NCBI RefSeq assembly: GCF_001886815.1
Contig: NZ_CP018099.1
Span: forward strand, 4,896,501-4,960,500
DNA from: Caldithrix abyssi DSM 13497
Lineage (GTDB): Bacteria; Calditrichota; Calditrichia; Calditrichales; Calditrichaceae
Length of the DNA stretch: 64,000 bases
Direction of reading: 5' to 3'
The notes under the pieces were generated by a model that made no database searches, had not been told where the DNA came from, and was given only the letters and a program-made list of their open reading frames with translations. Positions 21,885-47,442 of the stretch are shown in pieces. A program made the translations under genes and the position numbers. Position 1 is the stretch's first letter, and every line of letters begins with the position of its first letter.

Positions 21885-23777
21885 TTATTTAATTAAAATG
21901 ATCTTCTGCGTTTCCTGGTAATCGCCCGCCTTAAAAGAAACCAGGTAAATGCCCGATGGCAAATCAACTCCGTTAAATTTTAACGTGTGTCGTCCTGCTT
22001 CTTTTACCTGCTCAAGTGCTGTTTCAATCAACTGCCCGCGAATATTAAAGATTTTAATGGAAACCCTGGCCTGATGGGGCAGAGTGTACTCAATGGTTGT
22101 AAACGGATTAAAAGGATTGGGATAGCATGGCTTTAAATCAAATTGTTTTACCGCCGGCAGAGGCGTTTCAATGGCCGTTTCTGGAGCAAAATCATCGCGA
22201 GAGCGCGGACGGAGCTCGTATCCATCGCTGGCCGGCACGTTATTGGTGTACTGATCAACAATAGCGATCATACTAAAGGTTCCAACCGGCGGCGTCCAGC
22301 CATCGAGATCGGTGTCTTTATCGATGAAAAGAGCAACCGTGTCCTGGCCATCCGTAACCATTACAGAAGCGCCATTATTACCTTCAGCGGGCCAATCCGC
22401 CGGATTAACAATTCTTAATCCTGTAAAAATCGCCAGCTGTCCTTCATAAGCCTCGCCCACATCGGCCAGAGTCAGCGGCATCGGCGGATGTTCCTTTTGA
22501 CCGATAACCTGCACCTGAGCGGCTGAATCGAGCGCTATTTCCGTAAGTCCTTTGTACTGCGTAATTTTGCCGTAAACAAATAGACTATCTCCGATCTTCA
22601 AATCAAGGCTGAACCGGGAAGAATAGAGCAGAATGCCGCCCTCTTTGTCATTAATAAAAAATTGCACCTTATCGCTAAAATTCGGAGAGACAACCGTCCC
22701 GCGCACAGCCACAATTTTACCGCTTAAATCGGGTGAAAAGTCGTTATCGTTGTCAACACGCGCTTCATTAATGGTCAAAACAGGCGGCTGAAAGTAGGCG
22801 CTTATTTTTTTAATGGAAGTGGTCATTTCGTTAAAACTGGACACGGCATAAAAATAGGAGCTGTCGCTTAAGGGATTGGCGTCGATATATTGCCGAACCT
22901 CTGCGGTCACCTCGGCGATCTGTTCGAATTGGCCGTCCGTCGTGTCGCCGCGGTAAATATAAAAACCATCAATAATCGACTGATTTTGCGTGATTTGCAT
23001 GGCTTTTGCAACAGAAGGTTCCAGAAAGCCCACCAGGCCATCGTCTGAAAAAGAGTTGGGACGGGAGAGCGCTGGCTGCACTCGCAGGTTAGCGCCGCTC
23101 GTTTTATTGCCGCCGGTGTTGATCCACAAATCAAGCAACAGATTGGTCGCCCCATTGGCCACCTCGCTCAATTCGTAAAAATTGGTGTAATTGGGGTCGC
23201 TGGCTAGAAAGGGATCGTTAACATCGGCAAGGTAATAACTAATTCCCGGCACATATTCGCTGGAATCGGTCATCAGAGCCGGAAAAGCGTTTGAGCCATC
23301 CGGCGAAGAGAGTCCTTCAACAAAAATACCCACACGATCGCGGGCCGGGATGGACCCCAACGGCACGCCAACCTCAAATCGGGGGAAGTCAAAGGAATCG
23401 CCTGCCTGCAGGCTATCGATTGTGTAAAATAATTTGGAGCTGTCCATATCAAAAAACAAAATGCGGTAATAATAAGGACCGTGCATTTTTTGTCGGGAAT
23501 AGTGCACAAAATCGATTTGCTCCAGCGTTGCGTTGGGGAAGGCGCTCAGATCAAAAACACAGCCAAGCGCTTGATTTAAATGGGGGCTCCAGATGCCGTA
23601 AGGTACGCTATTGTTAAAACTTAATACCGTATCCGGCAGATTTAATTCCCAGCTAATTCTGGCCCCTTCATTGGTGGGGACAACTGAAACCGATTGCGGC
23701 GAATGGCTAATCACCGTTGTTTTAGCCAGCAAAATATTACTCAGAACAAAAAGCGTTAACACCAAAAAACGCATCAT
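21885..23777 (-). CDS. Secreted protein with OB-fold domain and FCB C-terminal sorting domain
   Basis: 630 residues with an N-terminal signal peptide (FLVLTLFVLSNILLA). Residues about 340-450 look like an OB-fold/DUF5689-type domain (AVRGTVVSPNFSDKVQFF, GDSLFVYGKITQYKGLTEIAL). The last 85 residues are a typical por-secretion/type A sorting domain: CYPNPFNPFTTIEYTLP, VSIKIFNIRGQL, SGIYLVSFKAG and a KIILIK end. Such domains are cleaved and lipid-linked after export through type IX or a related system. Middle fibronectin-type strands (270-330) are likely. The protein should be on the cell surface or released. The substrate or ligand is unknown. Confidence 0.85.
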   Translation of the reverse strand: MMRFLVLTLFVLSNILLAKTTVISHSPQSVSVVPTNEGARISWELNLPDTVLSFNNSVPYGIWSPHLNQALGCVFDLSAFPNATLEQIDFVHYSRQKMHGPYYYRILFFDMDSSKLFYTIDSLQAGDSFDFPRFEVGVPLGSIPARDRVGIFVEGLSSPDGSNAFPALMTDSSEYVPGISYYLADVNDPFLASDPNYTNFYELSEVANGATNLLLDLWINTGGNKTSGANLRVQPALSRPNSFSDDGLVGFLEPSVAKAMQITQNQSIIDGFYIYRGDTTDGQFEQIAEVTAEVRQYIDANPLSDSSYFYAVSSFNEMTTSIKKISAYFQPPVLTINEARVDNDNDFSPDLSGKIVAVRGTVVSPNFSDKVQFFINDKEGGILLYSSRFSLDLKIGDSLFVYGKITQYKGLTEIALDSAAQVQVIGQKEHPPMPLTLADVGEAYEGQLAIFTGLRIVNPADWPAEGNNGASVMVTDGQDTVALFIDKDTDLDGWTPPVGTFSMIAIVDQYTNNVPASDGYELRPRSRDDFAPETAIETPLPAVKQFDLKPCYPNPFNPFTTIEYTLPHQARVSIKIFNIRGQLIETALEQVKEAGRHTLKFNGVDLPSGIYLVSFKAGDYQETQKIILIK

Positions 23778-24149
23778 CTAAACTCCTTTTTTAATGTTGC
23801 CCTGTCAACCATTGTGCTTATCGCTGTTTTACAGGTTCGACTAAAATTACTAAAAGTTGAAAACTGGATTGTGATTCAAATCTATTTTCCAACAACAGAG
23901 GAGGGCAGAGACCATAATTTAATTTTAAGGCAACAAGGCGGAATATTTTGAACCGTGATTGGCCTGATTTGGAGATTGCCATGATTGTTTTTCTGCCTTC
24001 AAAATCTCTCCTTAAAATTGAAGGAAGAACTTCCCCTGTACAAATAAAATCAAGGCAATCCTAAAATCCTATTAATCAAGGTTCAAATTTCTGAACCGTG
24101 ATTGGCCCGATTTAGGGATTGCCATGATTGTTCTTCTGAAATCAAAATC

Positions 24150-24170
24150 TCTTCTTAAAATTGAAGAAGA
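24150..24170. other. Hairpin in repeat unit 2 (TCTTCTT/AAGAAGA)
   Basis: Arms 24150-24156 and 24164-24170 pair perfectly around AAAATTG. The same position in unit 5 has a different but also perfectly paired stem, so the stem is preserved despite changed bases. Confidence 0.7.
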
Positions 24171-24575
24171 ACTTCCCCTGAACAAATTAAATCAAGTAAA
24201 TCCTTCAATCCTGTTAATCAAGGTTCAAATTTCTGAACCGTGATCGAACTGATTTAGGGATTGCCATGATTGTTTTTCTGCCTTCAAAATCTCTCCTTAA
24301 AATTGAAGAAGAACTTCCCCTGAACAAATTAAATCAAGTAAATCCTTCAATCCTGTTAATCAAGGTTCAAATTTCTGAACTGTGATTGGCCCGATTTGGA
24401 GATTGCCATGATTGTTCTTCTGAAATCAAAATCTCTCCTTAAAATTGAAGAAGAACTTCCCCTGAACAAATTAAATCAAGTAAATCCTTCAATCCTGTTA
24501 ATCAAGGTTCAAATTTCTGAACTGTGATTGGCCCGATTTGGAGATTGCCATGATTGTTCTTCTGAAATCAAAATC

Positions 24576-24596
24576 TCTCCTTAAATTTAAAGGAGA
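24576..24596. other. Hairpin in repeat unit 5 (TCTCCTT/AAGGAGA)
   Basis: Arms 24576-24582 and 24590-24596 pair perfectly around AAATTTA. Relative to unit 2 the fourth stem pair is C-G instead of T-A, a compensatory change. Units 3 and 4 have the intermediate state, which is a G-U wobble on the opposite strand. Confidence 0.7.
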
Positions 24597-24801
24597 ACTT
24601 CCCCTGCACAAATAAAATCAAGGAAATCCTAAAATCCTATTAATCAAGGTTCAAAAATTACTTGTTTTAAAGTAACATTTTGTTTAATCATTCTTCATTT
24701 TTTTAACTTTTTTTGTTTTTTTGCGTAAAACATAAGTAATATTTTGAAACAGAGATCGTAAAACATTAAATTAAATGCATTGAAATCAAAGAAATAAAAA
24801 A

Positions 24802-25221
24802 ATGGCCGAACAAAGTTATCCGCAAATAGGCGTGGGCGCCGTTGTTATTAAGGACGGCAAAGTGCTGCTCGTTAAACGAAAAAATCCTCCGGCAAAAGAT
24901 CAATGGGCCATACCCGGCGGCCGGCTAAAGTTGGGCGAAACATTAAAGGAAGCATGCCAGCGTGAACTTCTTGAAGAAACGGGCATTAAAGCAAAGGTTC
25001 AGGAATTGATTTACGCCTTTGAAGTCATCGAGCGCAACCCAAATAATCAAATACGTTTTCACTACGTCATTTTAGATTTTTGGGCCGATTATCTCGAAGG
25101 CCGGGCAGCCGCTGGCGACGACGCCTCTGAGGTTGGCTGGTTCGATTCTGAGATGTTAAAAAAAATGGACATCAATCCTTACACCAAAAAACTATTAAAA
25201 GAGAAACTTAAATTTTATTAA
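24802..25221 (+). CDS. NUDIX hydrolase (ADP-ribose pyrophosphatase type)
   Basis: 139 residues. The Nudix box is complete: GGRLKLGETLKEACQREL followed by LEETGI, matching G-x5-E-x7-REUxEExGU. The N-terminal IGVGAVVIKDGKVLLVKRKNPPAKDQWAIPGG is typical of the ADP-ribose pyrophosphatase/NUDT-like group that hydrolyses nucleoside diphosphate derivatives with Mg2+. Cytosolic. ATG 24802 follows an A-rich leader (caaagaaataaaaaa) with no strong ribosome site. It is separated by 15 bases from the S9 peptidase gene, so the two form an operon. Confidence 0.9.
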   Translation: MAEQSYPQIGVGAVVIKDGKVLLVKRKNPPAKDQWAIPGGRLKLGETLKEACQRELLEETGIKAKVQELIYAFEVIERNPNNQIRFHYVILDFWADYLEGRAAAGDDASEVGWFDSEMLKKMDINPYTKKLLKEKLKFY

Positions 25222-47058: not shown

Positions 47059-47442
47059 TAACGTAAGATTTGATCAGCGACTACTAAGGCAGCGCAGATG
47101 CAAGTTAAAAAAATTTGATTTATTTAAACACTTAACAAATTTGAAGGCAAGTACACTTATCATTAGTTATGAGTGATGCGTAATTCGTGATGAGTTAATT
47201 TTTAAGCGCTGCTTAAATTATGTTGGTTGCAGGGATAACTCCTCACTCGTTAGCTGTCAGGCGCCATGTATCGAAACCGCTCCCTTCGACTTCGCTCAGG
47301 GAGCGGTAAGGAAAGAAAAAAAATTCTCGTTTCCTGCAAGGGCGGGGTCCTCGCAATGACAGAGCCACATGGTGGCTGAGCATAAACGCCTAAACCACTA
47401 AACTTCTAAACCCCTAAACTCTTACACTCTTTCTCCTGCGAG
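47059..47442. other. Intergenic stretch with REP-like palindrome and small repeats
   Basis: 384 bases with no gene. It contains the 39-base REP-like palindrome at 47271-47309, a short perfect GCCAC-ATG-GTGGC (47358-47370), and strings such as taaaccactaaacttctaaacccctaaac typical of dispersed repeat debris. Confidence 0.6.
47271..47309 (+). repeat. REP-like palindrome, copy 1
   Basis: A 39-base sequence, TCGAAACCGCTCCCTTCG then ACTTCGCTCAGGGAGCGG then TAA, with a 10-bp stem ACCGCTCCCT/AGGGAGCGGT (47276-47285, 47298-47307). It is identical, inverted, to 52111-52149. Similar CCTTCGACTTCGCTCAGG palindromes occur widely in bacteria. Confidence 0.85.

Follow-up and report, generated by a model that had tools for sequence, protein, structure and literature searches.

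In the 23S rRNA intervening sequences, the loop of an inverted repeat encloses a gene for the S23 four-helix-bundle protein. In the RAYT/REP systems, an enzyme gene lies between two inverted palindromes, which also occur as gene-less copies and in clusters (PMC2817692), and REPINs have been described as well (PMC3116915). The elements analyzed here, which in their complete form would hold a gene of the GxxExxY family (TIGR04256, PF13366), appear to resemble the RAYT-REP arrangement without belonging to it. The two are alike in that (i) the enzyme gene is flanked by two inverted palindromes, with GATT ladders on both sides of the gene at 42 of 80 GxxExxY loci; (ii) there are many extragenic, gene-less palindromes as well as clusters, known as BIMEs in the REP systems and represented in Caldithrix abyssi by copies at 80 places and arrays of 5, 9, 7 and 4; (iii) one enzyme gene lies directly inside a palindrome cluster; and (iv) the trees or classes of enzyme and palindrome agree. 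They differ in both partners: the predicted enzyme here is of the PD-(D/E)XK type, whereas RAYT is a Y1 HUH tyrosine transposase (PF01797), and the palindrome here measures 136-137 bp, with an 8-9-bp ladder behind a TGAACC tip, whereas a REP measures 20-40 bp and has a GTAG or CGTC head. With MITEs, the C. abyssi element shares its short length, non-coding sequence, terminal inverted repeats and dispersal, but no target-site duplication was seen and no DDE parent was found among the loci read. The 23S rRNA intervening sequences are similar in placing a small gene in the loop of an inverted repeat, and a relative, TIGR02436, is found in ladders here; the protein family, the ladder period (7-8 bp) and the location differ.

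The window, by which we mean the whole 64,000-nucleotide stretch of DNA that was analyzed, is part of one 4,978,541-base contig of C. abyssi. An earlier, sequence-only reading had described a five-unit array with a period of 142 bp in the divergent space between a surface-protein gene and a NUDIX gene, and both the array and its setting proved to be real. TRF placed the repeat at 23945-24655 (142 bp x 5.0, 91% matches) with a score of 1154, far higher than that of all other repeats in the window. Each period is made up of a 136-137-bp palindromic element (TGAACC...GGTTCA) and the hexamer AATTTC, and the array is separated from the start codons by 171 bp on the side of the surface-protein gene and by 148 bp on the side of the NUDIX gene. 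The features are as follows:

21885 to 23777, minus strand: neighbor gene for a 630-aa secreted or surface protein, outside the element
23949 to 24085, plus strand: element copy 1, 137 bp, imperfect palindrome TGAACC...GGTTCA with GATT ladder arms
23949 to 23986, plus strand: left ladder arm of copy 1, in which four GATT rungs (positions 9, 18, 26 and 35) follow the TGAACC tip
24048 to 24085, minus strand: right ladder arm of copy 1, the same ladder on the opposite strand
24092 to 24227, plus strand: element copy 2, 136 bp
24234 to 24369, plus strand: element copy 3, 136 bp
24376 to 24511, plus strand: element copy 4, 136 bp
24518 to 24653, plus strand: element copy 5, 136 bp
24086 to 24091, 24228 to 24233, 24370 to 24375 and 24512 to 24517, no strand assigned: 6-bp spacer AATTTC, an identical hexamer between all copies
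24802 to 25221, plus strand: neighbor gene for a 139-aa NUDIX hydrolase, named from its NUDIX-box sequence, outside the element

A CRISPR array could be ruled out, as the spacers are not unique but are all the hexamer AATTTC. When the units were folded as single-stranded DNA, three of them clearly outperformed their shuffled sequences (z of -5.6, -3.5 and -3.1), and units 4 and 5 did not (z of -1.3 and -1.1). The sequence-only reading had further proposed that an inner stem, TCTNCTT/AAGNAGA, is kept paired across the units by compensatory change. The pairing holds in unit 2 (T-A) and unit 5 (C-G); units 3 and 4, however, carry C/A at this place, a mismatch on the plus strand and a G-T wobble on the minus strand only, and unit 1 has one extra base in its 3' arm. 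Covariation therefore comes down to a single varying pair that is broken on the plus strand in two units and missing elsewhere, since the other element copies of the genome, when aligned, have a different sequence in this region without the stem, which is peculiar to the array in the window. The view that a hairpin matters was right, with the qualification that the conserved part is the outer ladder and not the inner stem. Taken as a whole, the earlier observation was borne out in part, and the interpretation placed on it was partly supported.

The anatomy of the outer ladder was examined by scoring the pairing of the arms over 31 loci with full element copies. Behind the TGAACC tip, GATT rungs follow every 8-9 bp, and the positions of tip and rungs (1-6 for TGAACC; 9-12, 18-21, 26-29 and 35-38 for GATT) are paired in 94-100% of the loci, with a near-invariant sequence rather than a covarying one. 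Among the spacer positions, 7, 16, 22 and 33 are paired in at most 10% of the loci, with A-A or T-T predominating, and pairing at positions 13 and 30 stays below 20%; over the selected spacer positions, 37% of cells were paired versus 46% after shuffling (sd 1.4%). Since the rungs are invariant and the mismatches are kept, the rungs look as if they were recognized by their sequence, and the mismatched interruptions look as if they were under maintenance.

The sequence-only reading had suggested looking for units at other loci of the genome, and these turned out to be numerous. With the array as query, blast yielded 64 matches. A profile of the five units, run iteratively with nhmmer over the stretches around these matches, found the element at 80 places, so that the genome holds at least 80 copies. 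They are mostly single and intergenic, most have no gene inside, and some stand in further arrays, of nine copies (L009), seven copies with a 280-bp period (L015) and four copies with a 405-bp period (L016). When up to two mismatches were allowed, the half-site TGAACCNNGATTNNNNNGATTNNNNGATT was matched 187 times in the genome versus 0 times for its reversed control. The array in the window is a local cluster of a dispersed palindromic element and not a private promoter device. For nAACCGTTnnAACGGTTn, 38 exact matches are reported in a passage of the C. abyssi genome paper (PMC5317091), and 38 were likewise found in the genome analyzed here; the repeat-related passages of that paper do not mention the present element.

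Several features of the surroundings of these copies are worth recording. The flanks consist of T-rich and A-rich extensions of the repeat, in which no target-site duplication was found. When the flanks of one element were joined, modules of the left flank were found elsewhere in the genome, ending 3 bp before the TGAACC tip, and at two loci (L272 and L273) there are junctions without the element, CATTCAA/CTA, that show no duplication and could be explained by module shuffling. Elements often lie within larger mosaic modules together with other ladders (L014, L020, L024 and L272-L289); these ladders are CCATTCAA and ACTCTTAC, have an 8-bp period and substitute for one another at the same joint.

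A 127-aa ORF breaks up the array at L010 (2984-4578). It is a GxxExxY gene and a full member of that family, scoring 146.3 bits against TIGR04256 (cut-off 35) and 142.7 bits against PF13366 (cut-off 22). The genome contains exactly one such gene. A sequence-based search of solved structures with the protein gave nothing convincing. An AlphaFold2 model built with 46 homologues (pLDDT 93.8, pTM 0.86) had as its best solved match in Foldseek SSO0001 (PDB 4ic1, E 1.8e-4), a Cas4 nuclease. In a structure comparison limited to a listed set of folds, SSO0001 gave a Z of 9.4, with 3.7 A over 102 residues, and the other matches, to restriction enzymes and a Holliday junction resolvase, gave Z values of 6-7. 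Residues E28, D67 and E77-x-K79 are invariant in the 46 sequences. The modeled protein is thus like the Cas4/RecB nucleases in its fold, in the conserved E/D/ExK residues and in a Q-x3-Y stretch, and unlike them in being a stand-alone protein of about 126 residues framed by ladders, with no CRISPR or recombination operon around the gene in the loci seen. On the basis of the model, GxxExxY is predicted to be a nuclease, a minimal RecB/Cas4-like protein of the PD-(D/E)XK fold. No function or repeat association of the family was described in the literature searched.

GxxExxY genes are present in 37 of the 40 Calditrichota genomes searched and also in many other phyla. Among 80 loci of other genomes, chosen as those of the closest homologues of the C. 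abyssi protein, a GATT ladder was found within 300 bp of the gene at 66, versus 22 of 749 control windows, a share that is biased upwards by the choice of loci; the density of GATT ladders near the gene was 47-fold that further away. It was owing to this choice of loci that tests independent of the ladder sequence were also run. Between the two flanks, an inverted repeat, whatever its sequence, exceeded the 99th percentile of controls at 18 of 30 Calditrichota loci and at 59 of 78 other loci, and the autocorrelation of the flanks peaked at lag 9, reaching 0.049 +/- 0.005 for GATT loci and 0.033 +/- 0.004 for non-GATT loci, versus 0.009 +/- 0.005 for control intergenic sequence. The GATT class accounts for only 14 of 71 Calditrichota GxxExxY loci, and in other clades of the family the ladders differ in sequence and keep the 9-bp period. 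On a tree of 142 proteins, which was built from few alignment columns and in which near-copies increase the clustering, ladder class changed 7 times versus 21.1 times after shuffling, and none of 200 shuffles was as low. The association between GxxExxY genes and ladders is well supported.

Many genomes of the 80-locus set have the ladder pattern at the GxxExxY locus only. Besides C. abyssi, many ladder copies were found in G053 (45 copies), G061 (51) and G002 (23), and the copies read in G053 are gene-less, intergenic palindromes of about 90 bp. GxxExxY was found in eight plasmid records and in no phage record. At five loci (L104, L109, L114, L124 and L126) the units apparently lie between type I restriction hsdM-like and hsdS-like genes, with the right tip stopping just before the next start codon.

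Four-helix-bundle, PIN-domain and Y1 genes served for comparison. At TIGR02436 four-helix-bundle genes of the same phylum, an inverted repeat between the flanks exceeded the 99th percentile at 19 of 28 loci, and their ladders have a period of 7-8 bp versus 9 bp for GxxExxY. These ladders could belong to a second, comparable system, or they could indicate that ladders occur more generally; they are the main reason for caution. PIN-domain genes of the same 40 genomes had no ladders, and an inverted repeat above that percentile was seen between the flanks of 0 of 29. Four-helix-bundle genes were rejected as owners of the GATT ladder, which was seen at 0 of 30 loci; C. abyssi has nine such genes, and no element copy was found near those that were read. 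The Y1 transposase (PF01797) was likewise rejected as a driver: the C. abyssi genome has three such genes, and in the stretches read no element copy lies near any of them. Across L185-L214 (e.g., L194, L205 and L208), four-helix-bundle genes are seen between inverted 7-8-bp ladders of many different sequences.

The turnover of complete units could be followed in the Draconibacterium group at a joint between two genes named hydG and aspA from their sequence. Five genomes, the starting one included, have GxxExxY between these genes, and in five others only the right ladder arm is left beside aspA, one of which also retains part of the GxxExxY C-terminus; a more distant relative has no ladder at this place. 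No clean empty site or excision was seen in this series, only decay with the right arm left. GxxExxY units decay, and we infer that they are also gained. The Draconibacterium unit (L325) contains an internal partial self-duplication, possibly a first step to an array, and in other relatives the hydG-aspA joint holds a different pair of small genes (L338 and L341). In sibling species of C. abyssi, the sequence upstream of the NUDIX and surface-protein orthologues contained no copy of the element as far as it could be read. In one of them (G001), the two contig ends that run out beyond these genes share 19 nt of overlap, from which a divergent region of about 450 bp lacking the array can be deduced; past the gene starts, the species have diverged too far for their intergenic regions to be aligned.

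The array in the window probably arose when a gene-less, REP/MITE-like element belonging to a GxxExxY system expanded locally in tandem; in such a system the ladder ends would be the recognition ends of the nuclease. The proposed mechanism has the following steps: (i) the full form of the mobile unit would consist of one gene, GxxExxY, between ladder arms; (ii) these arms, with their TGAACC tip, GATT rungs and mismatched spacers, would mark the ends of this small unit for recognition; (iii) the GxxExxY protein would recognize the ladder, most likely as a single-stranded DNA hairpin during replication or as an extruded cruciform; and (iv) nicking or processing of the ladder by this protein would let copies spread and arrays form, as is thought for RAYT acting on REPs. 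It is by analogy with that system that we infer an action of the GxxExxY protein on the ladder, or its mobilization. If the array is a product of a mobile element, its position between two genes would therefore be incidental, and its hairpins may affect transcription of the neighbors. A wider reading, which we put forward tentatively as plausible, takes GxxExxY proteins in general to be the mobilizing nucleases of an undescribed minimal element class, with 9-bp ladders recognized by their structure and period, gene-less ladder copies as REP-like offspring and the four-helix-bundle genes as a parallel 7-8-bp class.

Alternatively, the ladders could be spread by a host process, such as slippage, gene conversion or replication errors, with the GxxExxY and four-helix-bundle genes as mere passengers. 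Such a process would account for the occurrence of two unrelated gene families within ladders, for the further ladder types in interchangeable modules beside the elements and for the absence of the gene from most element copies; it sits poorly with a period that is specific to the gene family, with a ladder class that tracks the GxxExxY tree and with PIN genes that, in the same genomes, have no ladders, and we regard it as unlikely. The terminal inverted repeats and intergenic dispersal of the element would also be expected of a MITE derived from an ordinary DDE insertion sequence, the full copy of which is gone or unrecognized. This origin is highly improbable, given that no target-site duplication was seen and that, in other genomes, it is GxxExxY that recurs as the gene enclosed by ends of this kind.

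Two further readings concern the array itself. The sequence-only reading had proposed a regulatory, phase-variation-like role, in which the copy number acts as a switch for the surface-protein and NUDIX genes, and it is true that the array occupies a divergent intergenic position and that a promoter-like sequence, weakly matched, occurs in each unit (the region has 7 versus 3.7 +/- 2.2 in shuffles). The same element, however, stands beside unrelated genes at 80 places or more, and the sibling species keep both genes, with no copy in as much of their upstream sequence as could be read, so that this role found no further support and is very unlikely. Least probable of all is a structured non-coding RNA family with transcribed arrays: some copies do form stable hairpins, yet an Rfam search of the window gave no match, and invariant rungs with conserved mismatches fit recognition of a sequence better than a fold alone. 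These considerations leave the reading of the array as an expansion of a gene-less GxxExxY-system element as the preferred one.

The results suggest that the ladder elements, instead of switching two neighboring genes, belong to a family of small selfish elements about which little is known. GxxExxY is a very widely scattered family of small proteins, and the link to ladders provides it with a concrete, testable substrate. Should the nuclease indeed move the ladders, a PD-(D/E)XK enzyme, in place of a tyrosine transposase, would be driving a REP-like system, and this would explain a common class of repeats between genes in Calditrichota, Bacteroidota, Ignavibacteriota, Chloroflexota, Spirochaetota and others.

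Some minor observations concern other sequences near the elements in C. abyssi. One element copy (L042, 821-2833) is split by a 569-aa ORF, probably a transposase, and at three loci (L013, L029 and L034) an element copy has, at a distance of about 550 bp or less, a repeated ORF of 528 aa that may encode a transposase. The window itself contains, at 47390-47420, a short repeat with an 8-bp period, CTAAACCACTAAACTT, and repeats of the same kind adjoin elements elsewhere in the genome.
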